Translations under genes and position numbers: made by a program
Notes under the pieces: model-generated
Database searches by the model: none
What the model saw: only the letters and a program-made list of their open reading frames with translations
Told to the model about the DNA's origin: nothing
IMG/VR virus record: IMGVR_UViG_3300027896_000001
Coordinates: 62,001-126,000 of that record
From: a virus
Length of the DNA: 64,000 bases
Direction: 5' to 3' (one strand)
Part shown: positions 8,685-41,769 of the stretch, one piece after another
Layout of the letters: each line of letters starts with the position of its first letter
Numbering within the stretch: the first letter of the stretch is position 1

Positions 8685-10808
8685 TTATGGATTTATAAAT
8701 CCTTTGCTTGTTGCTTCTTCTGAAGTAAAAGCATCAAACGTGGCTTTTGATTTTACCTTGGAAATAGAATCAAGTTCTTCTGTAGTTAATTCAATTCCTT
8801 TGTCTTCCAAAAGATCCTTCAATTGTGAAGGAGAAATACTGAGATAATTGATGAATTCAGTCATTTCTATATTCTTTCGCAAAAGCAATTCTACCGTTTT
8901 TCTCGTATCGTATTCACGGAATTTGGTTAAATAAAAATCCAATTTTGCTTTTTTATCAATAACAATTGGATCTTCACATTGCTTTGTAAAAGATTTGCAT
9001 AATTTTGAAAGACGTTCTATTTCGGCTTTATTGGTTTCGATTCTTTTCCAGGCAGCTCTGCATTCATCCACGCTTGATACCGAACAGGCAAATGGATCAT
9101 CAAGTTTGCCTGATATCAGTTTGTTAAACAAAGGACACATGCCGTCCTCACCTAACCAACAAGTATGACAATACTCGTTTCGCGTAGGTTGAAAAGCGGT
9201 TCCATCTGTTTTAAGTATTTCCTGTTCTATACTTTGTATCGTTGTATTTATCCAAAGAAGTGCTCTTTCAGCAACTTCTTTTGGATTGTTTATTTCATAT
9301 TCTATTGTTTCTCCAAACCTAACATATTCTATTCTTACTATAATTTTATTAAAACTTCTCTCAGGAAGAAATTTATACGCAAGAAGGATATATGTCATTG
9401 TTTGGTGATCTTCCATTAACTCTTTTATACTCATCATTTTTCTGGATGATTTGTAATCCGTGATGACGACATAATCTCCGAAATAACTTAAGACATCTAT
9501 GATTCCTCGGAAATAAGCATCATTGGCATAAAAGTCTTTAAGCGATTTCCAATCTTTATCAAAGACAAGTCGTTTTTCTGTCAAAGTCAAATCACCAGGA
9601 GTTAATGAAAAATCTTTTAAAGTGTAAAATCGATTCATAATATTTCTTACTTCAAGAATGACGTCGGGATCTTCGCATTTATAATAATTAATAGCATTCT
9701 CAACCATGGCGTTATAAGACGCGAGATCCGGCATTGATGGCTTTTCATAAGTATTATGATCGATTGTTTTGTCCATGTCAAAAATCAAATCAGAAATTGT
9801 AACCAAACCAGGAAAATAAGAAGAAATTTTTGTCCGAACATCGTAAAGATATTCTGCAAGTCCCCTTATTCCTTTATTTAAATATTTACTCTCTATGATT
9901 TTTTCATCTTCAGGAAAAATTTTAATGTGTTTTGATTCTGCATAAATACAGAATTTATTTTTAAATAATTCTTCATAACACCATTCTCCGGCTTTTTCAG
10001 CAATTCTATGACATATTTTTCCTGTTTTAAAATAATTTTTATCAGGTTCTTTTAAATTCTTCACATATTGCATATACCATTTAAAAGGACACTGATTAAA
10101 AAGATTTAAACGGGAATAAGAATATGTCTGAGTAGCAAACATTTGCTTGTCACGTTCTGAAATCACAACGCCAAGTTTAAGATTATTTATGTCTTCAGAA
10201 CTTGCGAGATTTTTAACAACACTTGTTTCTGCTGAATAAAGTTGTTGCACTTCGGCCGGCATTGCAAATAGTGGAGCATCCATTTTTTTGATTCTTTCCG
10301 CTTCTTCAGAAACAAATAACTTACAATAAAGTTCGATACATTTTTTAGCATCATATTCTGAACGGTGAGACTCAGAATCGTTCCATTCAATGTTTGCTCT
10401 TATGCAGGCAGTTTTTAATTTATTTCCACCTCTGTATCTATCCCTGCAAAGCAATAATGTATCAATTACTTTTTTTGGAGAAATGCGTAAAAATTTTATA
10501 TCGAAAGACAATACGTTATGTCCAACAACAGTTCTTTCCCCTATGAACGCGGCTATTTCTTCTCTTATTCCGTCAGTAAGATAATTAGGACAATTTTTTA
10601 CCATGTCAATAGTGATATGGTTGACGGCGGTAGCTTCGGGGTTTATATAATTGGACATTGGTTTACAAAGTTTTGTAATAATTTTTCCGATTTTATTACT
10701 GCGATTAAATTCAATTGCGGTTACTTCAACTATTTCGTCTTTTTGATCATTTAATCCGGTTGTTTCAACATCTACAGATACAAGGTCAAAAACAGGTGTT
10801 AAATCCAC
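8685..10808 (-). CDS. DEDDh exonuclease fused to Cas4/RecB-like nuclease
   Basis: 707 residues from a GTG start with AAAGGAG upstream. Residues 8-180 are a DnaQ/RNase T-type 3'-5' exonuclease: D13-V-E15-T-T-G, GHNVLSFDIKFL around 97, and HRSEYDAKKC around 148. From about 230 there is a PD-(D/E)XK nuclease of the RecB/Cas4 group: YSRLNLFNQCPFKWYMQ, then VVITDYKSSRKM, a QTMTYILLAY helix, and EYCHTCWLGEDGMC. One upstream cysteine plus three clustered downstream is the pattern of iron-sulfur Cas4/AddB nucleases. One chain thus joins a proofreading-like exonuclease to a recombination nuclease. The last 130 residues are helical. It likely processes DNA ends in replication or recombination. Confidence 0.85.
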   Translation of the reverse strand: MDLTPVFDLVSVDVETTGLNDQKDEIVEVTAIEFNRSNKIGKIITKLCKPMSNYINPEATAVNHITIDMVKNCPNYLTDGIREEIAAFIGERTVVGHNVLSFDIKFLRISPKKVIDTLLLCRDRYRGGNKLKTACIRANIEWNDSESHRSEYDAKKCIELYCKLFVSEEAERIKKMDAPLFAMPAEVQQLYSAETSVVKNLASSEDINNLKLGVVISERDKQMFATQTYSYSRLNLFNQCPFKWYMQYVKNLKEPDKNYFKTGKICHRIAEKAGEWCYEELFKNKFCIYAESKHIKIFPEDEKIIESKYLNKGIRGLAEYLYDVRTKISSYFPGLVTISDLIFDMDKTIDHNTYEKPSMPDLASYNAMVENAINYYKCEDPDVILEVRNIMNRFYTLKDFSLTPGDLTLTEKRLVFDKDWKSLKDFYANDAYFRGIIDVLSYFGDYVVITDYKSSRKMMSIKELMEDHQTMTYILLAYKFLPERSFNKIIVRIEYVRFGETIEYEINNPKEVAERALLWINTTIQSIEQEILKTDGTAFQPTRNEYCHTCWLGEDGMCPLFNKLISGKLDDPFACSVSSVDECRAAWKRIETNKAEIERLSKLCKSFTKQCEDPIVIDKKAKLDFYLTKFREYDTRKTVELLLRKNIEMTEFINYLSISPSQLKDLLEDKGIELTTEELDSISKVKSKATFDAFTSEEATSKGFINP

Positions 10809-10818
10809 TGATGCTCCT

Positions 10819-11289
10819 TTACACTTGGTCTGAAGGTAATGGCGGTGGTTCTTTAGATTTCATTATATCTTTCATGTACTTTTCAAGTTTTTCAATTAAT
10901 TCAATATAAAATTTAATAGTAGAAATTTGAACATAATCTCTTTGTATTAATTCTCTTAATCCTGAAGACATGGCAAACATTTCATGTTCGTTAAAATTTG
11001 TCACTACTTTAGTTATTTCATTACGCAAAGTAATTCCGTGGGATTCCTGTATACCATCTTCTAATTCCAATACTCGTTTTCGGTATCCAACGGCTTGAGC
11101 AGATTCATCGGCGAACATTTTTTGAAGTTTACCAAGATGTTCATTTTTCTGTACTACATAATCACATAATCGTTTATTTAAATCAGAAGATTTTTTTTGT
11201 TCTTCTTTTATTTTTTGATATAAATAAACAACCCATCCTATAAAACCTATAATTGCTCCTATTAAAAAATTAATTATAAAAACACTCAT
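10819..11289 (-). CDS. Membrane-anchored coiled-coil protein
   Basis: 156 residues. Residues 3-24 (VFIINFLIGAIIGFIGWVVYLY) are a clear transmembrane segment followed by Lys/Glu-rich heptads to about residue 90 and a helical C-terminus ending in PPPLPSDQV. AGGAGG lies upstream. The shape (N-terminal anchor plus cytoplasmic coil) resembles phage spanin-like or membrane-scaffold proteins, but it is not near lysis genes, so I leave the function open. Confidence 0.65.
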   Translation of the reverse strand: MSVFIINFLIGAIIGFIGWVVYLYQKIKEEQKKSSDLNKRLCDYVVQKNEHLGKLQKMFADESAQAVGYRKRVLELEDGIQESHGITLRNEITKVVTNFNEHEMFAMSSGLRELIQRDYVQISTIKFYIELIEKLEKYMKDIMKSKEPPPLPSDQV

Positions 11290-11761: not shown

Positions 11762-12381
11762 AGGTTAATACAACTAAAATAGACAGCGAGAAGACGATCC
11801 GGCGAAGCACCTGAGCCAGTGCTGCTGACATCTCAAATCGAGTTGAAGCGCGCAGTGCCGACGACACGAGGCGACAGAAGTAATGAAAGAGTTCATGATA
11901 CGATGAGTTGGATGCGGGCAGGCTGAGCCGAAGGAGCAGCCGGACCTCAGACAGCTCATCGTGAAATGAACGATTTTCATTACTTCAAGACGAGTGCAGG
12001 TCGGAAAATCTTCAGCGAAGGATGACGCTGAAACACCTGAGCCCCTGACCGCATGGTCGAGGGGCCGAAGGCTTGTCTCATCTCCAGGCGCCCGCGAAGC
12101 GTGGCGAATATGGAGATGAGATGTTTTGAGGAATCCTGAAGCAATCGCGGGCTGGTGGCGCATAGCGGGAAGGGCTCGGGTCCGGCGCCTAGCGCCGGAT
12201 AAGAGCCCTGAAGCTCAATTGCGCCATCCAGAACGCGGTGGTGAAGATTTTAACGAGCACTTCGAATCGATCGATGTCAGCTGCTCTGGCGGTGGTGCTG
12301 GAGCCGTGTGAGGTGACGAGTGTGTTTTCTTTCGTCATTGATTGGCGAATCACCAACCTGGCAATAAACTTGTATTAACCT
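11762..12381 (+). ncRNA. Large structured RNA, family copy 1
   Basis: A 620-base GC-rich segment with no credible gene, closed by a perfect 12-base terminal stem (AGGTTAATACAA with its complement at 12370-12381). Right after the 5' arm comes CTAAA, and CTTGT lies at the 3' arm. Inside are several long nested hairpins: a GAAGTAATGAAA rod at about 11877 pairing with 11980-11995, CTCATCTCC with GGAGATGAG, and CCGGCG-CCTA-CGCCGG. Two internal loops are tandem GA facing GA, which is stable only if the plus strand is the RNA. A 7-base loop CGAATCA sits near the 3' end. Strand is inferred from these loops; neighbouring genes run on the minus strand. Confidence 0.7.
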
Positions 12382-12396
12382 CTTAACAAATTTGAT

Positions 12397-12655
12397 AAAG
12401 TACAACTAAAAATGAATACGAGGGCGGGCTAGATTCTCCAGGAGGAGTAGCTGCAGTGCAGCATCAATCCGCCGACGCGGGGTCTGCACGTCGGGAAAAC
12501 AGACCAGTTTTACTGGTCTGATGAACCGACTGCACGACGCCGCGCTGGCGGAATTGATGCGAAACGCAGCGGAGCCTCCAGGAGAATAGGGCACGACGAG
12601 TTGTAATATTATTATCATCGATCGCCGAAACAGCGATCAAAAATGCTTGTACTTT
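12397..12655 (+). ncRNA. Large structured RNA, family copy 2
   Basis: 259 bases closed by AAAGTACAA and TTGTACTTT, with CTAAA after the 5' arm and the C of CTTGT before the 3' arm. Nested stems include ATTCTCCAGGAGG with its complement, GCATCAATCCGCC with GGCGGAATTGATGC, and CAGACCAGT with ACTGGTCTG. A hairpin GATCGC-CGAAACA-GCGATC precedes the 3' arm. It follows copy 1 after a 15-base linker containing AACAAATTTG, which is also present between copies 3 and 4. The 3' arm overlaps the stop of the minus-strand 137-residue gene. Confidence 0.7.
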
Positions 12656-13067
12656 AGTTTGATGTTTCCACATTCAAAAAATAGTAACCGTTTTCCATTT
12701 TATCGCTTATCATTTCAGAAGCTAAACCAACTCCTGAACATGAGATGGTTCGAGATTCGGTATCAACAACAAACCTGATGCCTCGAAATGAAAAGTGTAA
12801 AAATTTATCAAGTTTGTCAGCCGCTTCCGCAGGAGTATTTTCTGTTTGTTTTGCAAAAGCAGCTTGCTTTTTTCTATCGATTATTTCGACATCTTTAGGT
12901 GTAAGAGCCACAATACATCCATCTGCATTTTTAGGTTCTCCCATATAATCATTACCTTCAAGTATGAATTTTTTAACATCTACACCTTCATTAAACGCGA
13001 CAACCGCGTGAAATGTAATTTTTGCGTTTACTTTTGTGCTTTTTTTTCTCTTCGGTTTTTCAAGCAA
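12654..13067 (-). CDS. Hypothetical protein between RNA elements
   Basis: 137 residues from a TTG start (13067) with AGGAGG five bases upstream. The basic N-terminus (EKPKRKKSTKVNAK) precedes an alpha/beta region (ITFHAVVAFNEGVDVKKFILEG) and a helical middle (AAFAKQTENTPAEAADKL). I recognise no family. It lies on the minus strand between structured RNA copies on the other strand; a basic protein beside these RNAs could be a binding partner, which is a guess from position only. Confidence 0.65.
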   Translation of the reverse strand: MLEKPKRKKSTKVNAKITFHAVVAFNEGVDVKKFILEGNDYMGEPKNADGCIVALTPKDVEIIDRKKQAAFAKQTENTPAEAADKLDKFLHFSFRGIRFVVDTESRTISCSGVGLASEMISDKMENGYYFLNVETSN

Positions 13068-13096
13068 TTATTCCTCCTTGGTAAAAAAATATGAAA

Positions 13097-13116
13097 GGGG
13101 AGATTTTAATCTCCCC
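13097..13116 (-). terminator. Hairpin terminator (minus strand)
   Basis: GGGGAGAT with its complement around a 4-base loop; on the minus strand it is followed by TTTCATATTTTTTT. It would end leftward transcripts just before the 137-residue gene. Confidence 0.7.
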
Positions 13117-13123
13117 TCTCTGT

Positions 13124-13324
13124 TTGCAATATAACTTGATTGAACGTGATGATCTGCTACGGGCGAGCGACGGACCAGTATCCTTCCTAAGGATACCTGG
13201 TCCCGAGCGAGCCCGTTGCCAGATCAGAGCGGCTTCCTGCCCAATTGGGCAGGAATGGGCTTGTTTTGTGCTATTAGCACATACCAGGCGAAACACCTGG
13301 CGCCCTACTAAGCTTATATTGCAA
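13124..13324 (+). ncRNA. Structured RNA, divergent family copy
   Basis: 201 bases closed by TTGCAATATAA and its exact complement, with AACTTGA after the 5' arm and CTTAT at the 3' arm (variants of the family signature). Internal stems: GATCTG/CAGATC, ACGGGC/GCCCGT, GGACCAG/CTGGTCC, the palindrome TTCCTGCCC-AATT-GGGCAGGAA, and the hairpin CCAGG-CGAAACA-CCTGG near the 3' end, with the same 7-base loop as in copies 2-4. Confidence 0.6.
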
Positions 13325-13335
13325 TTTTTTTATAT

Positions 13336-13610
13336 GAAATTAATACAACTAAATTCGATATTTTCTAGGGGTCATCAGGAGACTGTAGGGACCAAAAAGT
13401 CTGGTGCGCAATGCGGGCAGCAGAATTCTGACAGTCGTCACGTTCAGATTTCTCGTAGAGACATCGGAACGTGACAATCGTCAGAATTATGCTGACGACA
13501 TGGAGCACCAGACTGTTGGTCCGGGAAGGATCCTGATGACTGGGAGAAAATCCCATAGTTACTCTATAATGCTGTCGAAACAACAACGTAAAAAATCTTG
13601 TATTAATTTC
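13336..13610 (+). ncRNA. Large structured RNA, family copy 3
   Basis: 275 bases closed by a perfect 13-base stem (GAAATTAATACAA), followed by CTAAA, with CTTGT at the 3' side. The body is one long rod: GTCATCAGGA/TCCTGATGAC, GGACCAA/TTGGTCC, AGTCTGGTGC/GCACCAGACT, AGAATTCTGAC with its complement, TCACGTTC/GAACGTGA. TGT-CGAAACA-ACA lies near the 3' end. No reading frame inside looks like a protein. Confidence 0.7.
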
Positions 13611-13615
13611 TAACA

Positions 13616-14273
13616 AATTTGCATAACTAAATTGAGCGGTAACTTCGATATGGAGAAAAAGGCTGGATATTTTACAAATTTCGCAAGGAACCGAATTGAA
13701 CGGCTTGACGGACGAAATTTGCCAGCTGGGTGGACCTGAGATCCGTTGAGTCGTGCCCATGAGGTGGGGAGCAAAAGGCCGAAGGCCTTGTGAGCCACCT
13801 TGATGGGCAAAGACTCAGAGGATCGGTGGTCCAAGAAGCTGGTAAATTTTGTCGACTAGCCGTTTCAGATTCCGAGAAATTTGTAAAATTGATGCCGGTT
13901 GGTCTTCTTACGCTGCGAGCGCAGTCCGAGGGCTTTTACAATTTCTTCTTCAGGCTGAACCTGAAGAAAAATTGTAAAAACGTAGGACAAGCGAGGGACG
14001 TAAGAAGATCAATTTTCGACATATCGAAAAGGACCGGGACATAGCCTTCGAGGATGAATCAACGCAAATTTTCGAGTACGAACGTTCAAGCGACGTTCCA
14101 GACAAAGCTCGAGAAGACCACTTCTCGAGCTCTGTCTGGAAAAGGAACTGAACGTCCGTGCGAAGTAAATTTGAATTGATTTATCCGGGTAAGAAGGCGT
14201 TCATTTATAACACTTATTCCTGAACGAAACATTCAGGTCGAGATCGGGGACCTCGAAAAAACTTATGCAAATT
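13616..14273 (+). ncRNA. Large structured RNA, family copy 4
   Basis: 658 bases closed by AATTTGCATAA and its complement, with CTAAA after the 5' arm and CTTAT at the 3' arm. At least four long arms are visible: one from CAGCT through GGACC, GAGTC, GCCCAT and GGTGG to the tip AGGCC-GAA-GGCCT; a hairpin TTTTACAATTTC..CAGG with its complement; GACGTTC/CAGACA/GCTCGAGAAG with complements; and CCTGAA-CGAAACA-TTCAGG near the 3' end. It is the largest and best-formed member of the family. Confidence 0.7.
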
Positions 14274-14291
14274 GTTTTAAACACAACGTTT

Positions 14292-14350
14292 GCGCTATGC
14301 TGACGTGCCGGTTCCTCCGGCATGTGGCTTTAGCCCTTGCAGCATGGCGC
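14292..14350. other. Hairpin with nested stems
   Basis: GCGCTATGCTG pairs with CAGCATGGCGC, enclosing TGCCGG-TTCCT-CCGGCA. It lies between the 260-residue gene stop and RNA copy 4 and could end leftward transcription, though no clear T-run follows. Confidence 0.4.
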
Positions 14351-14377
14351 TGTTAGGTGCTGTAAAATTTGTTTCCA

Positions 14378-15160
14378 TTATTTGTTTTTGCGCCTCTTCA
14401 TTAATTTTTCTTTTTCGGCTGACGTGAGCGAACCCAGGTCGAGAGAGCCGCCAATCTCGGTGGGCAGTTTCAGCCCAGCGGCTGACGTGAGCGAACGCAG
14501 GTCGAGAGAGCCGCACTTTGTGGGCAGTTTCAGCCCAGCGGCTGACGTGAGCGAACCCAGGTCGAGATAGCCGTCAATCTCGGTGGGCAGTTTCAGCCCA
14601 GCGGCTGACGTGAGCGAACCCAGGTAGAGAGAGCCGCCAATCTCGGTGGGCAGTTTCAGCCCAGCGGCTGACGTGAGCGAACCCAGGTCGAGAGAGCCGC
14701 CAATCTCGGTGGGCAGTTTCAGCCCAGCGGCTGACGTGAGCGAACCCAGGTAGAGAGAGCCGCACTTTGTGGGCAGTTTCAACCCAGCGGCTGACGTGAG
14801 CGAACGCAGGTCGAGAGAGCCGCACTTTGTGGGCAGTTTCAGCCCAGCGGCTGACGTGAGCGAACCCAGGTCGAGAGAGCCGCTATATATTCCATTTTTG
14901 CACGTCTCGCCCATTGCCCAATTGAAAAACTCAACGAACGACGGATAATGATTTTTCAACCGCTCGTTACATTCCTGCTCAGTTATTTTATCAGTAGGGG
15001 CAACGCGGCAGACTATTTGTCCGCTCGGTAAATAGTGCCCTTCGCGCCATAGCTTTTCGTTCAACTCCAATTTCGCTTGCGTCTCGCTGTGCGATTCTAA
15101 ATTAAAAACCGCGACGTCCCCATTATCGGGGCGATGAAAAAAACTGATGAATTGGCACAT
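14378..15160 (-). CDS. Leucine-rich-like tandem-repeat protein
   Basis: 260 residues. The first 95 form a unique domain (MCQFISFFHRPDNGDVAVF, then a helix and CNERLKNHYPSFVEFFNW). The rest is eight copies of a 20-21-residue unit GSLDLGSLTSAAGLKLPT followed by EIG or KC, nearly identical at the DNA level, then a basic tail KEKLMKRRKNK. This is a bacterial leucine-rich-repeat-like solenoid. The near identity of units points to recent expansion and easy change in copy number. Such proteins usually bind other proteins; the target is unknown. AAGGAAA lies before the ATG. Confidence 0.75.
   Translation of the reverse strand: MCQFISFFHRPDNGDVAVFNLESHSETQAKLELNEKLWREGHYLPSGQIVCRVAPTDKITEQECNERLKNHYPSFVEFFNWAMGETCKNGIYSGSLDLGSLTSAAGLKLPTKCGSLDLRSLTSAAGLKLPTKCGSLYLGSLTSAAGLKLPTEIGGSLDLGSLTSAAGLKLPTEIGGSLYLGSLTSAAGLKLPTEIDGYLDLGSLTSAAGLKLPTKCGSLDLRSLTSAAGLKLPTEIGGSLDLGSLTSAEKEKLMKRRKNK
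14418..14885. repeat. Tandem 60/63-base coding repeats
   Basis: About eight direct repeats with core GCTGACGTGAGCGAACCCAG; units are 63 bases, or 60 where a codon is missing. They lie wholly inside the 260-residue gene and encode its solenoid units. Confidence 0.9.
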
Positions 15161-15393: not shown

Positions 15394-16506
15394 TTATTTT
15401 TCTTTCGGAACACCCTCTCCGAGCATTGTGTCGGCGGCTTTTTTGCCAAGGTTTTCCGGAATTATTGATTCTCCCTCAGGCCGCTCTACCACGTCTCCGG
15501 CAATATCCCCTTCGTCGGCATCAGGAGGAAACTGAACTGCGATATCTCTTTGCTCGTCGATATTTACTGGAACAGCCCCTTCAACATCAATAGCTTCTTC
15601 CATAGCGGATTTTGAAGCCTCAAGAAGTTTTGCACTTGCGTCTCCGAGTAAAGATACTGCGCCGGCTTCTCCTATCATTCTGGACTGTTTTGCTTTCGAT
15701 GCTAATCCTCTTTTTATCGGTTCCATTACAGAATCGATAAACTCTGGAGTCGGCATTATATCCGTAATGAACACATCACGGCCGCCTGACTTTACCTTAC
15801 GATGAATGAGGAATAGTTTTGCTCCAAACATCCCATCATAAGGAAGAGGTTTTCCCGCTTCAATTTGTTTTACCATGTGGGCTGCTCTTAGCAGCATTGT
15901 AAGATCTATAAATGCGGATTCGAATCCGACTATTGTGTTAATGCTACGAGTTTCAAATCTGTAAGGATTAGGAGCTAAATCAATAACAGGAAAGCATTTT
16001 AGCAATCCCATTTGTTTGCATTTTCCTGCTTTAAAATCAGGACATTCATGAAACAGACATCCGCTTTCGGGAAATCTTATTTCCCATTTGCGGTCTGTTG
16101 CCCCAACAATAAGTTGTTTTGCTTCGGTGCCTTTTCCGTGAGACTTGCACAGCAGGCCTTCACTAGAAGAATATTTTGCCAAATAACTTTCCCACATATC
16201 AGGAACTTCTTTGGCAAGACAGCATACCTCAACTCTTCTTGGTTGAGGACTTTTATTATTTGCTGATTCCAGCATTTTTTGAATAGGTTCATTTAAAACC
16301 CATTCTTTTACTGCTACAATTTTCTGTTCTCTCCCGATGCGTTGCGTCTTTACTATTTCTTTAAGCATTCTATAAAATCCACAAGCGACTGGAGAATTAA
16401 CAGTATTTGGCGGTTCAAGAGGCCCGTATCCAGTGGATATTTTTCCACGATATTTTGTTACCTTGGTGGGCTCTCCATTTTCATCATGAGTCATTCCTAC
16501 TATCAA
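15394..16506 (-). CDS. Recombination-directionality-factor-like protein
   Basis: About 370 residues. I take the TTG at 16506 as start because AGGAGG sits five bases before it; the frame opens at a GTG at 16512 with no room for a site. The N-terminus (GKISTGYGPLEPPNTVNSPVACGFYR), a middle C-x4-C-x6-C pattern (CLFHECPDFKAGKCKQ) followed by FPVIDLAP..RFETRSINTI, and a basic C-terminal half are like the gp3-type recombination directionality factor/phage replication family. The similarity is by pattern only. No integrase is seen in the window, so a role in excision is doubtful and a general replication or recombination role is as likely. Confidence 0.45.
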   Translation of the reverse strand: MIVGMTHDENGEPTKVTKYRGKISTGYGPLEPPNTVNSPVACGFYRMLKEIVKTQRIGREQKIVAVKEWVLNEPIQKMLESANNKSPQPRRVEVCCLAKEVPDMWESYLAKYSSSEGLLCKSHGKGTEAKQLIVGATDRKWEIRFPESGCLFHECPDFKAGKCKQMGLLKCFPVIDLAPNPYRFETRSINTIVGFESAFIDLTMLLRAAHMVKQIEAGKPLPYDGMFGAKLFLIHRKVKSGGRDVFITDIMPTPEFIDSVMEPIKRGLASKAKQSRMIGEAGAVSLLGDASAKLLEASKSAMEEAIDVEGAVPVNIDEQRDIAVQFPPDADEGDIAGDVVERPEGESIIPENLGKKAADTMLGEGVPKEK

Positions 16507-16541
16507 GAGCACCTCCTGTAAAAAATAAATCTGTTAATTAA

Positions 16542-23371: not shown

Positions 23372-23427
23372 GGTATTTTCCCTTCAGTTTAGGTGTCGAA
23401 ATTTAATTAAAAATAACACTTTTTATG

Positions 23428-23642
23428 TTACAAAAAAGATAGGTTTCATCGCTTTTTTGTAAAAAAATAAAATTTTATTAATCGATTAAATTAAGAAACG
23501 CTCTAGTGAAAACTATCATTTCCGTAATTAAGAAATCAAATTACAAAAATGATAGATTTTGCAAAAGCATTTTTTAATTTAAACGTTTAAAAATACTTTT
23601 TGGAAAAATAAAAAAACCATAAAACCTAACATTTTCGTAATT
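23428..23642. repeat. Iteron-like 20-base motif, four copies
   Basis: Consensus AATTACRAAAATGATAGNTTT: plus-strand copies at 23428-23446 and 23539-23560, minus-strand copies at 23508-23529 and 23621-23642. Copies two and three form an inverted pair eight to nine bases apart. The arrangement suggests a DNA-binding protein site cluster. Confidence 0.6.
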
Positions 23643-23717
23643 AATATTATTTATTAATAGAATTTTATATCTTATGTTGTATCAAATAATTACAAATTGG
23701 CTTAATTTTTGCTTCGT

Positions 23718-23788
23718 ATATACGTGAAAAATATATACATAACCTGTTAAAAAATCAACATGTTATATATATACATTTTCACGTATAT
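23718..23788. repeat. Large AT-rich inverted repeat
   Basis: ATATACGTGAAAA (23718-23730) pairs perfectly with 23776-23788, and the next 13 bases inward pair with one or two mismatches, leaving a loop of about 18 bases. It could extrude as a cruciform or mark an origin. Confidence 0.6.
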
Positions 23789-24056
23789 GTGTGTGTTTTT
23801 CTCTTTTGAGTCTTATCTTATTTTTTAAAATATTTTTTTTAAAAGTTCCCTTCGTTTTTTATGTATGAAGTTTCAGAATATTCATTTGTTTTTTTTATTC
23901 AAACCCCAAAAGAGAAAACCTGAATTTTTAATAATTTTAATTTAACGTTTAAGTTACCATAAGACACAAATTAAAATCAATGCTATCACGCGTCCTCCAA
24001 TCTTGAAGCAGGAGCCGCTAGGAAGGCCTCCAGCAGCTCCAGGTGATATTACTCGA

Positions 24057-24823: not shown

Positions 24824-27800
24824 ATGCCAACAGAAACCTCCCAAAAAACCCTGGAACAACTCTTGCAAATGCAGCAGGACGCCAGGAATAATCTCATTAT
24901 TAATACCACTGTAAAAGACACAGTTGGACAGATTCTTAATTCTGTCGAGAATGATGACGTAAAACTTAACATTAACAACTTAAGGGTTGTTGAAAAATAT
25001 GATAATAAAAATATTGCTCAGCAGAAAGAAGTAAGAAACAAAGGACAATCGTGGTCAAATGATCTCCGAGGCGATATTCAATTAATAGATAAAAAGACGA
25101 ATAAGGTGGTAGATTCAGTAAAAAATATGAAGGTTGCCGATATACCTAAAATTACCGATCGTGGAACGTTTCTTATAGGCGGTATAGAATATCAATTTAC
25201 GAAACAGGCACGATTAAAACCGGGAGTTTACACAAATAGAAAAAGAAACGGGGAAATAAATTCCTTTTTCAATGTCGATAAAACTGTTGATTTTGAAAGA
25301 GGATTTAATAATAATTTTAAACTGGGCTTTGACCCTGAAAAAAAAGTATTCATGATGACATACGGAACTAAAAATGTTCCGCTGATAAATGCATTAAGAA
25401 CTGTCGGCGTCACGAATAAGGAACTTGAAGATACATGGGGAAAAGATGTTTTCAGCGCAAATTCAAACGCATATGATAAATATCAGGATATAAATCAAAA
25501 CAAATTGTATGAAGCTGTATTTGGAAAACACCCACCCAGAGAACTTAACCATCTTGACGTTTCGAAACAAATTAAGGAAAGATTATTTGCCACAGAACTT
25601 GATCCGAAAGTAACAACAGTAACCCTTGGGAAGCCGTATAAAGAAGTTAATAAAGACGCCATTCTCGACGCTTCTAAAAAAATACTTGATATAAACAGGG
25701 GCGTTGTTGAAAGCGATGACCGGGAGGCACTGATATTTAAATCGTTCCATGATGTCGAAGACCATATAAGAGAAAAGCTTATTAAGGGTTCTGATAAAAT
25801 TATAAATAATATTAAATATAAGCTTGGGAAAAACAGGACGATCAACAAGTCGTTAAGTCCGCAGATGTTTAATTCTTTTACTATTGGGACAATAACAAAT
25901 AGTAGTTTGTCAAACCCCCCATCCCAAACAAACCCTCTTTCGATAATAGGTGAGAGTTCAAAATTCAGCATTATGGGAGAAGGTGGAATTGGATCAATGA
26001 ACGCGGTTACGAATGAGGCCCGGCAGATATCCAACAGCCAAATGGGATTTATTGATCCTCTTCATACACCAGAAGGCCCGGGCATAGGCGTGGCGGTTCA
26101 TACAACGCTTAATACGGTTAAGGTGGGTAATGACATTTATTCAAAATTTTTAGATCCTCACGGAAAAAAGGTAATGCTTTCACCCCTTGATGTCTATAAT
26201 AAAAATCTTGCATTTCCTGATCAATTTACTTTAAAAAATGGAAAACCGATCGCATTATCAGATACGGTAAAAGTTATTAACGCTGGAAAAATGACAGAAG
26301 TCCATAAAGACAAAGTTGATTTTATAGTTCCAAGCGCCATGGGAATGTTTGACACTTCCGCCAATTCAATTCCATTTTTAGATTCTATACAACCTAATCG
26401 TGGCCTTACAGCTTCTAAAATGCAAGAGCAGGCGCTATCATTAAAGCATCGCGATAAGCCATTATTTAAAATACTAAACGACAAGGGAACTCCATTTTCA
26501 GAAACACTTGCCGATGTTATGGCGTTACCAAAATCCCCTGTTGATGGAAAAATTAAAAAAATAGCTCGTGATCATATTATCGTTAAAGACAAGCGTGGAG
26601 ACGATCACAAAATTCATCTTTATAATAATTTTTCCCTTAATACTGAAAGTTTTTTTCATAATGAACCGGTTGTAAAAGAGGGAGATTCCGTAAAAGAAGG
26701 AGATCGACTTGCGGACAATAATTTTACAAAAGATGGACAGTTAGCTCTTGGGGCAAACCTTCGAGTAGCGTATATTCCGTACAGAGGATATAATTACGAA
26801 GACTCTGCCATAATGTCTGAGTCAGCTGCTAAAAAACTAACCTCTCAGCATATTTATGATTTGAAAACAAAACGCACGGCAAAAGGCGTATTTTCTGCAA
26901 ATAAATTCAAAGCTTATTATCCAGAAGAATTGACAGCAAATAATATTAAAAAACTGGATAAGGATGGTATTATTATTCCCGGCCAAACAGTTGAACACGG
27001 CGATATTGTAATAGCACATCTTGAGAAAAAAGTTCCGACAGCCGATGATCTTGCAATAGGGCGACTTGATAAACAACTTAAGCGTGATATGGCTGATCAT
27101 TCAGTTCGATGGGAAAACAATCATGTCGGCGTTGTAACTGATGTAAAAAAACAGGGAAACAGCGTTATAGTAAATATCAAAACAGAAGAACCTCTTAAGG
27201 TGGCTGATAAAATTTCTGGACTTCACGGAAATAAACATATCATATCGAAAATAGTTCCTGATGATCAAATGCCGTTTGATCCTAAAACAGGAAAACACAT
27301 CGAACTTACAATGAGCCCTATCGGAGTATCTGGAAGAATAAACACTTCGCAATTACTTGAAAGCGCAATAGGAAAAATTGCTGAAAAAACCGGGGAACAA
27401 TATCCTATAAGAAATTTTTCCCCTGTAGATAATTCTCGAAAAATTCTTGAAGATTTGAAAAGTGTTGGCTTGTCTGATAAAGACATTCTTGTTGATCCTG
27501 TTACAAAAAAACCTTATAAAAATCCTATAGCCACTGGCGTCGCCCATATACTTAAATTAGAACATAAAGTCGACCATAAATTCTCCGCAAGATATAAAGA
27601 CGGGTATGATTCGAATGAACAACCTGTAACTGGAGGAGAAACCGGAGCAAAAAATTTAGGAAGACTTGAAATAGGAGCGCTTCTTGCAAGAGGCGCCAAT
27701 GAAAATTTAAAAGAAATGTATACTATTAAAGGCCAGCGAAATGATGAATATTGGAAAGCGATGGAAACCGGGCAGTCTCTTCCTCCTCCTAAAAATGCTT

Positions 27801-30800
27801 TTGTTTGGGATAAAATGCTTGCTATGATGCATGGTTCCGGAATAAATGTTCAACAAAAGGGAAAAACATTTACTCTTAAACCAATGACAGATGCAGAAAT
27901 TATAGAAAAATCAAAAGGAGAGCTTTTAAGCCCTACTGACACTTATAGGTTTAAAGATATGGCCCCGATGAAGGAAGGACTTTTTGATCCAGTAAAGGCT
28001 GGAGGAATATTTGGAGAAGATTATACTCATTTTAAACTTCCGGAAAAAACACTTAATCCGATAGCGGCAACCGCAGCGGCAACTCTTATTGATCTGCCAT
28101 TAAAAAGATTAGAAAACATTGTAATAGGAAAACAATTTGTAGATAAAACAACCGGGCAAATAGTGGCTCCTGGAACCCCGAATTCTGTATCAGGTGGTCC
28201 AGCGCTTGAAATTCTTTTAAACTCAATTAAACCTAAAGAGGATTTAAAGCAAGCTATAGAAATGCTTGATAAGGCAAAAAATCCCACCGAAATTAACAGG
28301 CTTAATAAAAAAATAAAATATCTTAAAGCTTTGGAAAAAAATAAGATGAAACCGACGGATTATTTAATACAAAATGTTTTAGTCATTCCGTCAAAATATC
28401 GTCCTGTTTTTACAATGGGCGCAAATGATACCGTGATAACTTCCGATGTAAATGACCTGTATCAGCAAACAGCTCATACAGCAAATGCTTTAAAAGAACT
28501 GAATGCTCAAATTAGTTCAGTCGTCAAGGATGAGGATGTAAAAAATCTTCAACTTGCCGAAGCGCGTGGTCAGATGTATCAGGATTTAAAAGCTGTTTAT
28601 GGCCTTCAGGAACCAACGTCATATCTTAACAGGGTTCATAATAAAAAGGGTTTTGTGATGCAGATAGACGGTGGAGAAAAACAAACCAAAGAAGGATATT
28701 TTCAAGATAAGGTTGTTTCGAGAAAACAGGATATTGTAGGAAGGTCAACCATTATTTTAAATCCTAATCTTGGTGGAGATGAAATTGGAATACCGAAAGA
28801 AATGGCTACAAAAATATTCCAACCCTTCATCATGAAGAAAATGGTATCATGGGGGTATTCTCCTCTTGAGGCCCAAAAACATATCACTGACGAAACGCCA
28901 ATATTTGATAGAGCAAGACAAGTAGTTACGGATGAAAAACTTGTGATAGCTAATAGGGCTCCTTCTCTTCATCGTTGGAACATGACCGCATTTAAACCAA
29001 GATTGGTTGAAGGAAAATCAATCGAAGTTCCAACGGTTGTTGTTCAGAGAAACTTTGGAGGCGATTTTGATGGAGATACATTTCAGATTCATGTTCCTAT
29101 TTCTCCAAAAGCCCAGGCAGAAGCGGAAAGAATGAAACCTTCTGCCAGTATGTTAAAAGTAGGATATGATGAAGTTCTTAACAGGCCATTAAAGGATGTC
29201 ATTACCGGGGCCTGGCTGGTATCAAAAGGAAAAGGCGGAATAGATACCGGATTAAAATTTGATAATCTTAAAGACGCGCAGCAGGCATATAAACAAAATA
29301 AATTTGATCATGGCGATAGCGTCCAAATAGGTAAAATAAAAGCTCCTTATGGAATGCATGAAATAAACAGTGTTGTTCCTGAAGGTGATAAAAAATGGGA
29401 TATTGAACTTAATGACAAAAATACCCAAGGTTGGATAAGAGATATTACAAAAAAACATAATGGAAAATTAGGGCTTGCATTAGCAGATAAAATAAAAGAA
29501 GTTGGAAATAATTATGCCACTGATTTTGGATTTACTCTTGGCGTTTCAGATACGGTTTCTCATAATGATTTAAGAAACGAATTATTAAGAGAAGCTAATA
29601 AAAAAATAGATAAAAAAAATCCGATTACTATATTAAAAGCGTATTCTGATATATTGCAAAAAGGTCATGCAGAATTGGCGAAAAATCTTGGCGAACACAC
29701 AATGGTTGGAATAGGAATAAAATCAGGAGGCGGAAGAGATATAAGCAATACAGCAGCTATTAATTTCATGCCTGGAATAGTGACAGATGCTAATGAAGTT
29801 CCTATTCTTATGCCGATAACAAAATCGTATTCTGAAGGATTAGATACAGTTGGGTATTGGGCAGCTTCTCATGGTGCTCGTGGTGGTAATATAAAAAAAT
29901 CAATATCATCTTCCTTGCCTGGCTGGATGACAAAAGATCTTATGAGTTCTTTATACGAAACAAGAATAGTTTCCGAAGAACCTGCGGATCAAAAAGGAAT
30001 TGAATATTCAGTTGAAGATAAAAAAGGAATCATGAATAGATTTCTTGCAAAAGATGTTAAGACAACCGGAGGAAAAATTATAGCAAAAAGAAATGAAGTT
30101 GTAAGTTCAGATGTTGTTAATAAATTAAATCAACATAAGATAAAAAGTGTATTTGTTCAATCACCTCTTACCGATCCAACACCTGGAGACGGATTTTCAT
30201 CTTATTCGTATGGGACAGATTATAACAATAAACTGCATAATATTGGTGATAATATCGGAATTATGTCTGCCCACACTGTAACCGAACCGGCTTTAAACTG
30301 GGCCATGAAAGCATTTCATACAGGCGGTGCATTAGAACTTAATAAAAAAACAACAGGAACTGTTTTTGATAAATTATGGAATACTTTAAAATTCACACAA
30401 CTTCCAAATAAAGCAACTTTGGCGAGCATGCATGGGGTCGTGGATGGAATTAAAAAATCTTCGATTGGTGGTTGGGACGTGATTCTTAATGATGGAAACA
30501 AACAGGATGTCAGGTATATAAACGCGAACAACGAACCTGTTGTAAAAAAGGGAGACATTGTAAAACCGGGAGATTTTCTTTCGACAGGAGACCCCTCTCC
30601 TCATGATATACTTAAATATAAAGGAATGCCCGAAACACAAAAATTTCTTGTTGATCATATAAATGAAATAGTTGATAAGAAACTGGATAAAAGAGATATT
30701 GAAACGATGGTGCGAGGGCTTACAAATACGACCAGAATTCTTGATCCTGGTTCACATCCGAATTTTGTAAAAGGTGATACTGCATCCCTTACAATGATTG

Positions 30801-38197: not shown

Positions 38198-38446
38198 ATG
38201 CTTGGAATCAAAAGTGAATACTTTGAAAAAACGGCAAGAGAGATCCCTGAACCGTTGAAACGTTTATTGTCAAAAGTCAGAGACGATGCCAAGGATACAT
38301 ACGACTTGGTTACCAAGCTTCCGGGAAATGACACATTTGTAAGCCAGAATCTTATTTTTTATACTCCGCATATTCAAGTAGCAAAAATTAAAGAAAAACA
38401 AAATGGAAAAAAAAGAAAAATAGGAGTGTTTAAATTCGGAGAATAA
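38198..38446 (+). CDS. Small hypothetical protein
   Basis: 82 residues starting three bases after the 742-residue gene; MLGIKSEYFEKTAREIPEP has the recurrent FEKTA signature. The C-terminus is basic (KIKEKQNGKKRKIGVFKFG). A hairpin terminator follows. It is likely a partner of the upstream virion protein. Confidence 0.6.
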   Translation: MLGIKSEYFEKTAREIPEPLKRLLSKVRDDAKDTYDLVTKLPGNDTFVSQNLIFYTPHIQVAKIKEKQNGKKRKIGVFKFGE

Positions 38447-38494
38447 TATTATAATTAGGTACATCGGTAGTACCTCCTTGGTTAAGGTGGGAAG

Positions 38495-38526
38495 ACGGCT
38501 CTAGAACATCAGAGCCGTTTTCTTTT
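38495..38526 (+). terminator. Rho-independent terminator (plus strand)
   Basis: ACGGCTCT-AGAACATC-AGAGCCGT followed by TTTTCTTTT; ends the 33-38 kb plus-strand unit. Confidence 0.85.
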
Positions 38527-38533
38527 AATGGCT

Positions 38534-38568
38534 AAAAAAAAAGAGCCTCCTGGGTCGGAGGAGGCTCT
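38534..38568 (-). terminator. Rho-independent terminator (minus strand)
   Basis: On the minus strand AGAGCCTCC pairs with GGAGGCTCT and is followed by nine T. It closes the structured RNA and the reverse transcriptase operon. Confidence 0.9.
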
Positions 38569-38785
38569 ACAAACCAGTTAACACTACGGAACAGAACCTG
38601 ACTGGGGTCGGGGGCCAGGAAGGTTCTCACCTGACTGGCCCCGCCACACGGAAGCGTAAGCTTATCGTGTGGACAGGCAGACGACTTGACGCGCGTCGCG
38701 AGCCGGAAAGGTAAGCGAGCGACGTCAGCCGTCAATGATCATCCAGCGCGGAACACGCTGGTTGAGAGTATTTTATCTCTCCTTC
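38542..38785 (-). ncRNA. Pseudoknotted RNA at the end of the RT operon
   Basis: A GC-rich, gene-free 240 bases between the 76-residue gene and the terminator on the same strand. Hairpins CCAGCG/CGCTGG (38743/38756) and CCACACG/CGTGTGG (38644/38666) flank a multi-branched part; then two 7-base stems cross, 38593-38599 with 38621-38627 and 38611-38617 with 38636-38642, an H-type pseudoknot. By position it is transcribed with the reverse transcriptase, so it is a candidate template or structural RNA for it. Retron RNAs usually lie upstream of the enzyme, so this is not a standard arrangement. Confidence 0.6.
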
Positions 38786-38790
38786 CGCAA

Positions 38791-39021
38791 TTAACTGGCA
38801 GGATTTTGATCGGGATTTTTATGAAGCTGTTTTACGACTTTTTTTATTTTTTTAATTTTTTTTCTCGTGTTTTTTTTTGTTTTATGATTTTTTCTTATTC
38901 GTTTGATTGTTTCGGAGACATACGGAAATATCGCTTTCGCAAAATTTGCCGTAATGTCAACTATAATGTTGAATGCTGGCGATCTTTTATTTAGAATCGC
39001 CTTTGATTCAGGCTCGTTCAT
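38791..39021 (-). CDS. Small highly basic protein in the RT operon
   Basis: 76 residues; its ATG overlaps the RNase HI stop (ATGA). The N-terminal half is mildly hydrophobic (FNIIVDITANFAKAIFPYV) and the second half is almost all Lys and Arg (RIRKNHKTKKNTRKKIKKIK). It is a likely nucleic-acid-binding protein, perhaps an RNA chaperone for the neighbouring RNA. No family is recognised. Confidence 0.6.
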   Translation of the reverse strand: MNEPESKAILNKRSPAFNIIVDITANFAKAIFPYVSETIKRIRKNHKTKKNTRKKIKKIKKVVKQLHKNPDQNPAS

Positions 39022-39518
39022 AAAACAGCCCTTTCTTTTGGTTGGTTTGTGAGAAGGTCTCTTAGAGACTCATCCACATGAATATTGAATTTGCATGTGG
39101 AATGTCCTTTGACCCATTGGAATTTGAAGCTCTTGAACTCGGGGGTTAACCTGCAAAGCTCCTTCCAAAGGTCAGAATTAATAACACCTCCTCCTGATGA
39201 TTTTCTCCAACCATTCCTTTTCCATTCCTCTGAATATTCGGTAAAATTATCGGACACGTAACGCGAATCGGTAATAACAATACAATTATTATTCGACGCT
39301 CCGTCATAACTTTCTTTTAGAAGTTTTATTAAATCTTTCAACCCTTCAATTACAGCAGTCAATTCCATACGATTATTGGTTGTATTTGTCACTATATCTC
39401 TTTTACTCGAAATTTCATTTTTTGCCGGATCAAGAATTATATAAGCCCATGCGCCATTACATCCAGCGTTTCGTTTGTTTCCCGAACAACCGCCGTCTGT
39501 ATATATTGAAAACTCCAT
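39018..39518 (-). CDS. rnhA: Ribonuclease HI
   Basis: 166 residues, the usual length. Catalytic residues are visible: D8 in YTDGGCSGN, the Glu in NNRMELTAVIEGL, the Asp in VITDSRYV, and a late Asp in HVDESLRDL. RNase HI cuts RNA in RNA-DNA hybrids. Its ATG shares a base with the stop of the reverse transcriptase gene, so the two are translated together. In that context it may trim the RNA from reverse-transcribed DNA, as host RNase H does for retrons; removing replication primers is the alternative. Confidence 0.9.
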   Translation of the reverse strand: MEFSIYTDGGCSGNKRNAGCNGAWAYIILDPAKNEISSKRDIVTNTTNNRMELTAVIEGLKDLIKLLKESYDGASNNNCIVITDSRYVSDNFTEYSEEWKRNGWRKSSGGGVINSDLWKELCRLTPEFKSFKFQWVKGHSTCKFNIHVDESLRDLLTNQPKERAVL

Positions 39519-40585
39519 TATGCTGCGGCCGTTCTAGGGAATTTTTTATTTTCGAATTCCGTTAGTTGGCGCATGTATTTGTTTCCTTTTTCAGGATTTA
39601 CCGACATCAAAAACGATGCCCACCCCTTTAAACATCTTATTCTTGATTTTGTCGTATGATCAGGGAATTTGTATATTGCATGATGAACTTTCGCCCTGAA
39701 TTTTTTGAACAGACTTTTCTGAACATTGGGATTCTTGTTTATAACTACGCCGCATATTTTAAGCCTCGAGCCTTTTCCTCGGTATCTTGTTTTTTCTCTT
39801 TTGGGAGAAAATTTGAACGCCCATAACAATGCGTACGCTTTCTTTTTTGTTTTTTCCATTAATTCCAATGGTGATAATGTGGGACTGCTAAACGCCAGAT
39901 CGTCTGCATATCTGGTATACGTTATCCCGTGTTGTTTGCAATGTTCGGTCATTGCTATGTCAAAACCGCGCATCACTATATTCGCAAGCATGGGAGATGT
40001 GGGGAAGCCTTGGGCCGTAAACCCATTATATGTACAGGCTTCTATTACTCTTTTAAAAAGAGATTGATAACCAGTTTCGTCACAATAATTTGGTATGAAA
40101 ATTGCTTTTATTTCTTCGCATTTATATTCGAAATTTACAACCTTATTTTTATATAATGACGGATGGCATTTTCCATCAAGCATTCTTGTGTATTTACTGC
40201 AATATCGGCAAATATTTTTATTGCCGAACAAACAGTTTTTCAGATGGTCAACCGATATCGAATCAAAAAAACTTTTGATGTCTACTTTTCCTAAAGATAT
40301 ACATCTTAAATGTTGTGTAGCATTGGTTACTATTCCTCTTTTAGGAACAAACCCGTGCGCAGCTTCATGATATGAATATCTTTTTAGGAATCTGAAATAA
40401 ACGAATTTTTGGATATGTTTTAAATCATCATCAGGGGCTATAACAACTCTTTCGGATCCGTCTTTTTTGGGAATTGTAAAACGATGAATATGCCTTTCTT
40501 TGTCATTAAGAATGGCATCGACCTCTTCTCTCGTTTTCCCAAAAATCATTTTAAAATCAAAGTTGCTTGTCCTTTCCGGCTCCAT
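39518..40585 (-). CDS. Retron-type reverse transcriptase
   Basis: 355 residues from the ATG at 40585, six bases after GGAGG. It has RT fingers and palm: RFTIPKKDGSERVV, HGFVPKRGIVTNATQH (with the NAxxH motif typical of retron enzymes), KVDIKSFFDSI with the first catalytic Asp, QGFPTSPMLANIV and the active site YTRYADDLAFSS. The later motif reads KICGVVINKNPNV, close to the VTG region of retron enzymes with Cys for Thr. A cysteine pair CRYC and more cysteines lie in an insert at 127-170. No defence effector is adjacent; instead it is embedded in an operon with DHH, RNase HI and a basic protein. It is not of the diversity-generating type. Confidence 0.9.
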   Translation of the reverse strand: MEPERTSNFDFKMIFGKTREEVDAILNDKERHIHRFTIPKKDGSERVVIAPDDDLKHIQKFVYFRFLKRYSYHEAAHGFVPKRGIVTNATQHLRCISLGKVDIKSFFDSISVDHLKNCLFGNKNICRYCSKYTRMLDGKCHPSLYKNKVVNFEYKCEEIKAIFIPNYCDETGYQSLFKRVIEACTYNGFTAQGFPTSPMLANIVMRGFDIAMTEHCKQHGITYTRYADDLAFSSPTLSPLELMEKTKKKAYALLWAFKFSPKREKTRYRGKGSRLKICGVVINKNPNVQKSLFKKFRAKVHHAIYKFPDHTTKSRIRCLKGWASFLMSVNPEKGNKYMRQLTEFENKKFPRTAAA

Positions 40586-41669
40586 CAACTACCTCCTGTT
40601 GGCCTGGTTTGATTGTTTTAACAGCATCTTTTCTTGCTTGATTAATGTCTTTTGCCGATCCTGTTTTAATCAGTTCATCTGCTTTTTTCTCGACCGGATC
40701 GGTTGGATCTACTGCATATTTTTCCATAGGTTCGATCTCCTCTTCTTGGTTTAATATTTTTGACATATCTTCTACAAATCTATCAAGCAATTGATCTTTT
40801 ACTATTCCGGCGCCTACGTTATAATGACCGCCGCCACTTACTAAATAATCAAAACTTGAGAATGTTTTTCCTATATTTATTTCATTTGCTTCTTTTTGCC
40901 ATTGATTATAACCAACTTCTACATAAACATTATTGTTACCAATAGGTGTTATTCTTAATATGTATTTAATGTTCGGAAATATTAATAATTCGGCATATCT
41001 TGGAAATTGTCCTTTTCTTCGTTGGTTTACTATCGACATTTTTTTCGCCAGGACAATAGAGTTTTTTATCTGCAATGCACTTTTTTCAAGCTCTCTCACA
41101 TAGTATGGACCTATCCTTAAAATATAGATAGCCTCTTTAATATCAAGTTTTGTTTTTTCAAGAACTTCTACTATTCTACAATAAGTCATTTCGTTTGGAA
41201 AAGCTCTTTCGATATAAGCTCTTAATATCATCATAGGGCTTTTATCCATAAAAATCTGATTAATGTTTTTATAGGAAGCCGAATCAATCATATCCACAAG
41301 CGATATGAACGACTGGTCATAATCGAAAGTATCATTTAATCTTATAGTATGCACAAGCCTTGCCGCTGAAGGGCTTTTTGGATTATAGATTATTTTATTA
41401 TTCTTGATTTCGCACTCACCAAAGTCGGGATTAAAATGATGATCAACCCATAAATCAGCGTCTTTATGATATTGAAAATCTAGGATAATTTTAAAATCAC
41501 CTTTTTTTTTAATGATACTGGGGAAAAAAATATTAAATTTAGAACCTCTCCATGACGACGATACAGGATATAACCTGTATCTTCCGCGAACAACATTATG
41601 AAGATATAAGGATGCAGAAATAATACCATCTATATCGTCGTGGAAAAAGACATGTTGCGTTCCGTTCAT
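40557..41669 (-). CDS. DHH-family phosphoesterase
   Basis: About 370 residues from the ATG at 41669 (AAGGAGG upstream; the frame is open to 41726 but that part covers the promoter motif). Motifs: FFHDDIDGIISA (DHH motif I), IILDFQ, WVDHHFNPDFG (the DHH signature), and SGGGHYNVGAG, the DHHA1 GGGH motif. Members include RecJ, nanoRNA/oligonucleotide nucleases and cyclic-dinucleotide phosphodiesterases; this size fits the NrnA-like or single-strand exonuclease group. A helical tail (EKKADELIKTGSAKDINQ) follows. It overlaps the reverse transcriptase gene by 29 bases, so it is probably part of the same system. Confidence 0.85.
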   Translation of the reverse strand: MNGTQHVFFHDDIDGIISASLYLHNVVRGRYRLYPVSSSWRGSKFNIFFPSIIKKKGDFKIILDFQYHKDADLWVDHHFNPDFGECEIKNNKIIYNPKSPSAARLVHTIRLNDTFDYDQSFISLVDMIDSASYKNINQIFMDKSPMMILRAYIERAFPNEMTYCRIVEVLEKTKLDIKEAIYILRIGPYYVRELEKSALQIKNSIVLAKKMSIVNQRRKGQFPRYAELLIFPNIKYILRITPIGNNNVYVEVGYNQWQKEANEINIGKTFSSFDYLVSGGGHYNVGAGIVKDQLLDRFVEDMSKILNQEEEIEPMEKYAVDPTDPVEKKADELIKTGSAKDINQARKDAVKTIKPGQQEVVDGAGKDKQL

Positions 41670-41702
41670 TTTCCTCCTTAAGCAAACAGTTAAAATTCTT
41701 CT

Positions 41703-41721
41703 ACTATAATTGTTATTACAA
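41703..41721 (-). promoter_or_regulatory. Candidate promoter of the RT operon
   Basis: Minus-strand TTGTAATAACAATTATAG, about 35 bases before the DHH gene; same motif family as elsewhere. Confidence 0.5.
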
Positions 41722-41769
41722 AACAAAGTTTAAAATAACACAAGGAATAGAGAAAACAAAAGAGAGGAT

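Follow-up and report, generated by a model that had tools for sequence, protein, structure and literature searches.

Tandem retron-type msr-msd cassettes probably serve a large phage's reverse transcriptase in trans

Introduction

Five highly structured elements that follow one another in the genome of a large phage raise the question of what such an array produces, and whether the molecule that folds is RNA or DNA. The elements lie in a window of 64,000 nucleotides, the whole stretch analysed here, which represents positions 62001-126000 of the 174,649-base IMG/VR record IMGVR_UViG_3300027896_000001. The record is probably complete, since its two ends have 127 bases in common, and its TerL is of the SPP1-like type. 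A sequence-only reading of the window had proposed a tandem family of diverse structured RNAs, of a size recalling ROOL and GOLLD.

Several other features of this phage were recorded. A fused beta-beta' RNA polymerase is encoded as a single polypeptide of 2110 aa at 24824-31156 on the plus strand (Rpb2_6 1e-55, plus Rpb1 domains), with ~31% identity to proteins of the Vibrio phages D181 and D69 across two thirds of its length. Close to it, the divergent intergenic region at 23400-23950 is very AT-rich (~20% GC) and holds a long inverted repeat, ATACGTGAAAA...TTTTCACGTAT, making it a promoter or origin candidate; GC skew tracks gene orientation and marks no origin. Other GC-rich structured non-coding stretches of the same phage (L008, 18090-18400 and 18700-18840; L010, 2450-2900) are without the cassette signature described below.

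Results

Organization of the array

The five elements measure 620, 261, 201, 275 and 658 nt, and their boundaries were recovered by an independent script that searched for three features: a closing stem, a following ACTAA-like motif and a GAAAC-type hairpin ahead of the 3′ strand of the stem. They are listed with the parts predicted for them as retron-type cassettes, the reading argued for below:

11762..12381, minus strand: cassette W1; a1 12370-12381, branch-G candidate 12369, a2 11762-11773; msr stem-loop 12340-12358 (loop GAUUC), msd rod 11774-12339 (566 nt)
12396..12656, minus strand: cassette W2; a1 12647-12656, branch-G candidate 12646, a2 12396-12405; msr stem-loop 12618-12640 (GUUUC), rod 12406-12617
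13124..13324, minus strand: cassette W3; a1 13314-13324, branch-G candidate 13313, a2 13124-13134; msr stem-loop 13284-13300 (GUUUC), rod 13135-13283
13336..13610, minus strand: cassette W4; a1 13598-13610, branch-G candidate 13597, a2 13336-13348; msr stem-loop 13571-13587 (GUUUC), rod 13349-13570
13616..14273, minus strand: cassette W5; a1 14263-14273, branch-G candidate 14262, a2 13616-13626; msr stem-loop 14219-14237 (GUUUC), rod 13627-14218 (592 nt)

The genes surrounding and interrupting the array are the following:

8685-10808: exonuclease/PDDEXK flanking gene, used as a protein query
10819..11289, minus strand: 156-aa gene, a conserved neighbour on the opposite side of the array from the Gp3-like gene
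12654..13067, minus strand: gene for a 137-aa protein among the cassettes, kept at the locus in several relatives
15394..16512, minus strand: Gp3-like gene, flanking the array

Compared with dinucleotide shuffles, the elements fold with z of -14.4 (W1), -10.9 (W2), -9.9 (W3), -12.4 (W4) and -17.8 (W5). With the boundaries found again and folds 10-18 SD better than shuffles, the proposed tandem, structured and diverse family of paralogues is borne out. Three of the sizes given earlier (620, 275 and 658) stand, while the second element has 261 nt in place of 259. The ends are common to all five paralogues, as had been claimed, with closing stems of 10-13 bp (earlier 11-13), and the rods enclosed by them are not alignable between paralogues. 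Linkers of 14 nt (12382-12395), 11 nt and 5 nt lie between elements. The linker resembling AACAAATTTG that was noticed earlier is real, its second copy lying partly inside the following stem. Genes are not absent throughout this stretch, since the conserved 137-aa gene lies between the second and third elements, its final 3 nt overlapped by W2. The 137-aa protein matched no family above the cut-off, and no loci were retrieved with its gene as the sole protein query. Between the start of this gene and W3, the minus strand holds a GGGGAGATTTTAATCTCCCC hairpin and then a T-run (13095-13118), a terminator or attenuator candidate.

In relatives, the stop codon of the Gp3-like gene borders the array with no gap or almost none, and in the window the two are separated by a hairpin and a repeat gene. 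The hairpin, GCGCTATGCTG...CAGCATGGCGC at 14290-14360, just past the array, has z=-3.8 and is without the cassette signature; the repeat gene (ORF 14378-15160, minus strand) contains 63/60-nt tandem repeats at 14416-14882 and encodes a GSLDLGSLTSAAGLKLPTEIG-type repeat protein. Since zero-length linkers are possible and the array abuts the Gp3-like stop in relatives, separate promoters for the units are unlikely.

Conservation in related phages

Relatives were found through protein queries with the two flanking genes (exonuclease/PDDEXK and Gp3-like), and 43 elements were identified in ten related phage records, all at this locus, with one to six per record and always in the same orientation. 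Orthologous rods align poorly, with closing stems and 3′ hairpins still recognisable, and the pairing of the rods is preserved across phages despite sequence change. Each orthologous set of cassettes retains a closing stem of its own: GCATGA, for instance, recurs in L012, L023 and L077, and AGTACAA in the window and the same three records. A shortened cassette remnant was observed in L023 (12120-12190) where L012 has its first cassette, with the stem kept and the rod and msr hairpin lost.

An out-of-sample record (L051/G013), found solely through its reverse transcriptase (RT), was predicted to carry an array beside the Gp3-like gene, and four elements were found there with scores of 17.0-23.5, against a scanner background of 2 matches scoring >=16 in each 400 kb of shuffled sequence. 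When whole records were scanned with the loop plus CTTRYRY pattern, matches outside the array were no better than control. A more distant relative, with an RT ~40% identical, has the RT operon and the RT-proximal ncRNA described below, but the interval between its flanking genes showed no recognisable array; the array has thus probably arisen secondarily, by expansion in trans.

Retron anatomy on the minus strand

When the minus strand, that of the flanking genes, is read, each element presents the order a1, G, spacer, stem-loop, long rod and a2. The G directly follows a1 in 42 of the 43 elements, in the context AAG and not the usual AGC. The spacer to the stem-loop is mostly 6-16 nt, and the loop is GUUUC or a variant of it in nearly all elements. 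Among known retrons, the closing stem has 8-30 bases and ends just 5′ of the priming G, and the msr stem bound by region Y of the Ec86 RT carries a UUU loop (PMC6868368).

Covariation, which the sequence-only reading had proposed as a check, is strong at the shared ends: 13 of 14 pairs of the closing stem and stem-loop show double changes, and the covariation score is 0.853, compared with 0.230 +/- 0.019 in 500 shuffles and 0.173 for the best slid control. Pairing was found in 96.2% of cells, as opposed to 33-53% when slid, a value biased upward because the elements were found partly by pairing, which slid and shuffled controls correct only in part. Watson-Crick pairs account for 388 of the 406 pairs of a1/a2.

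Which strand folds, and as what

The strong folds (z -10 to -18) could also be expected of large functional RNAs of the ROOL/GOLLD kind transcribed from the plus strand, the more so as the unpaired plus-strand bases are purine-rich (A 42%, G 19%) and the larger elements fold somewhat better on that strand. ROOL and GOLLD are likewise large, highly structured, non-coding and found in phages. The window as a whole gave no Rfam match at the gathering score, and relaxed E-values brought only sub-threshold matches of the chance type, so that the elements are neither ROOL nor GOLLD, families which the earlier reading had not recognised in them either. The ROOL covariance model (RF03087) had no match, although it gave none in control genomes either, and the GOLLD model had none in the whole-library cmscan. 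Phage blastn returned no match, and a scan of genome contigs one weak, irrelevant match. Moreover, only 25-30 bp separate the array from the start of the neighbouring gene, leaving little room for a plus-strand promoter.

Pair composition argues further against such RNAs. GU pairs amount to 4.5-5.3% in the elements (4-5% in the rods) whichever strand is read, compared with 10-16% in 16S, 23S, 5S, RNase P and 6S RNA and 12.8% in shuffles. The 1x1 mismatches, counted in the rods only because the msr stem inflates A-C in a whole-element count, are evenly spread (G-T 24, A-C 15.5, C-T 21, A-G 29). GNRA and UNCG loops are nearly absent, so that the helices lack both the wobble pairs and the tetraloops expected of RNA end-products. 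Triloop tips closed by C-G have the form C(GNA)G in 14 of 17 cases on the plus strand, the predicted cDNA strand, and in none on the minus strand (P=8e-15); GNA and GNNA loops form hyperstable DNA mini-hairpins (PMC4686876). Given the plus-strand GNA tips and the missing wobble preference, selection appears to have favoured folding of the rods as plus-strand DNA.

The msr stem behaves differently, with 29 G-U against 3 A-C on the minus strand, indicating that the conserved stem-loop was selected as RNA, on that strand only. In the a1/a2 stem no wobble preference was found (G-T 5, A-C 4 of 406), though RNA pairing is expected there; at a guess, this keeps the tandem units orthogonal. A structured RNA as the end-product is therefore probably not what the array makes, since the wobble assigns the RNA to the minus strand and the rods look like DNA, and plus-strand functional RNAs appear very unlikely to us.

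Folded genomic ssDNA without any reverse transcription, such as a single-strand origin, a hairpin promoter or an attC-like site, was our first idea. It would account for rods with Watson-Crick pairs only, DNA-type loops and a single locus beside replication genes. Integron attC sites similarly are strand-specific folded ssDNA with conserved ends and a variable middle, and the a1 pattern RYRYAAG/TTRYRY is reminiscent of their core boxes. However, the search for Phage_integrase found no tyrosine integrase in 11 records, and the idea does not explain the G that follows a1, the GUUUC loop or the presence of a retron-type RT in the same phage. The origin/attC-like idea was dropped because the msr stem is RNA-selected on the minus strand and an RT was found, and we regard it as highly improbable. 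An RNA part on one strand combined with a DNA part on its complement matches the product of a retron.

The reverse transcriptase operon

The RT and its neighbours occupy another part of the window:

38540..38567, minus strand: Rho-independent-type terminator predicted from sequence, GAGCCTCCTCCGACCCAGGAGGCTCTTTTTTTT, after the RT-proximal ncRNA
38574..38798, minus strand: RT-proximal retron-type ncRNA, directly downstream of the RNase H gene and kept there in relatives; a1/a2 CCAGTTAA/TTAACTGG with GCGGAA/TTCCG; hairpin 1 GGAGAGATAAAATACTCTC; hairpin 2 CCAGCG-TGTTCCG-CGCTGG (GUUUC-type loop); the remainder rods and a conserved CCCCCGACCCCAG stretch
39018..39518, minus strand: RNase HI, its start overlapping the RT stop
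39518..40588, minus strand: retron-type reverse transcriptase, with NAxxH as NATQH, YADD, and ICG in place of VTG
40557..41726, minus strand: DHH/DHHA1-type phosphoesterase (RecJ/NrnA/PggH fold) with DHH-family motifs, first gene of the operon

The best matches of the RT are the PADLOC RT_XIII retron models (4e-64), NCBIfam retron St85 (2e-56) and, as the nearest solved structure, the Ec86 RT in the PDB (5e-26); in the libraries used it is nearer to retron RTs than to those of DGRs. Apart from the RT, none of the six operon-region proteins matched a PADLOC model. An RVT_1 search found the RT in 8 of 11 related records, and in these eight the N, A and H of NAxxH and the YADD are invariant, with an ICG/VCG-type cysteine variant at the VTG position throughout; validated retrons with V or T substitutions in VTG exist (PMC6868368). 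The AlphaFold2 model of the DHH protein (pLDDT 78) matched PggH (E=5e-15) and RecJ (E~1e-12) in a Foldseek search of the PDB, and the NrnA fold was matched as well. Genes for DHH, RT and RNase H occur together in 18 phage RT loci.

Judged by its sequence, the RT-proximal ncRNA is the canonical neighbour template, built on the same plan as the cassettes, and its region (38440-38830) has z=-7.5 for the plus-strand fold. Array units are without the first msr hairpin of this ncRNA, have no long sequence in common with it, and differ in the motif before a2. The contiguity of msr-msd and RT is found for the RT-proximal ncRNA and not for the array, which lies ~24-25 kb from the RT, RNase H and ncRNA, and its units are for this reason filed as retron-type trans cassettes and not as classical retrons.

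Discussion

Minus-strand wobble, DNA-like rods and a co-encoded retron-type RT, RNase H and ncRNA together indicate msr-msd cassettes. From these sequence features, we consider it very probable that the five elements are tandem retron-type cassettes, used in trans by the RT of the phage to template msDNA. Minus-strand transcription of the surrounding replication/recombination operon would include the cassettes, and each segment of the transcript would fold with a1 paired to a2. The RT, encoded in trans, would attach to the conserved stem-loop with its GUUUC loop, initiate synthesis at the 2′-OH of the G after a1 and copy the rod. Removal of the template by the phage RNase HI would then leave a long, folded, single-stranded msDNA of plus-strand sequence. 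We infer both the synthesis of cDNA from the branch G and the use of the cassettes by this particular RT; shared vertical descent alone may explain why RT and array occur together. The msDNAs predicted in this way would reach ~590 nt.

The nearest known systems are the retrons of the Ec86 (Eco1)/St85 group, to which the RT is closest and with which the cassettes share an a1/a2 stem, a G after a1, an msr stem-loop with a UUU-type loop and an msd hairpin. They differ from that group in the presence of several trans cassettes per RT, in an RNase HI and a DHH nuclease encoded by the phage itself, in ICG for VTG, and in being carried by large phages. Furthermore, the msd rods span 61-592 nt, compared with hairpin stems of ~10-50 bp in known retrons (PMC6868368).

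As to what the msDNAs do, the alternatives are functional ones within the cassette reading and compatible with its anatomy. The main alternative to a decoy or scaffold function is a phage-borne defence module directed at competing phages, in which the msDNA would serve as sensor or antitoxin for an effector, e.g., DHH. The DHH protein has a phosphoesterase fold, which to our knowledge is not among the known retron effector types, and the system belongs to the core of large phages, with vertical conservation; besides, a single sensor does not require many different templates per genome. Defence would nevertheless agree with the conserved accessory gene that accompanies the RT and with the anti-phage action of bacterial retrons (PMC8867640), and we find such a module rather unlikely. 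Alternatively, the cassettes could be degenerate or selfish msr-msd duplicates that spread in the locus with no function beyond being copied, as the variation in copy number from 1 to 6, the shortened copy in L023 and the distant relative with operon and ncRNA but no recognised array might suggest. Yet orthologous cassettes each retain a closing stem of their own, and their rods go on pairing while the sequence changes, so that selfish duplicates seem to us distinctly unlikely.

Overproduced msDNA containing mismatches can titrate MutS (PMC6868368). Since the rods carry many mismatches, we favour, with low confidence, a role for the diverse msDNAs in engaging DNA-processing proteins of host or phage, either as DNA decoys or as protein-binding scaffolds, with the DHH protein possibly trimming or debranching them. 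Mismatch repair, hairpin or end nucleases and defence sensors are all conceivable targets, and those other than mismatch repair fit equally well.

Conclusions

Known retrons pair one RT with one adjacent template and are mostly bacterial anti-phage systems. Searches confined to open-access literature, and thus a weak indication of novelty, turned up neither msr-msd cassettes arranged in tandem and used in trans nor this phage operon, and an arrangement of many templates with one distant enzyme was not found described there. Tentatively, a lineage of large phages may have turned a retron into a trans-acting factory, in which RT, RNase H and DHH copy 1-6 diverged tandem templates into ssDNAs of up to ~0.6 kb, used in infection as DNA decoys, aptamers or scaffolds. 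The combination of strand-specific wobble and DNA-type loops offers a general test for distinguishing, in raw sequence, DNA-templating RNAs from structural ones. A conserved retron-type operon with an additional tandem library of templates, from which several different and unusually long msDNAs are predicted, could also supply natural designs for long ssDNA made in cells, a limit of retron editing tools, and, if the reading is true, would open a direct way of learning what use a virus can make of msDNA.
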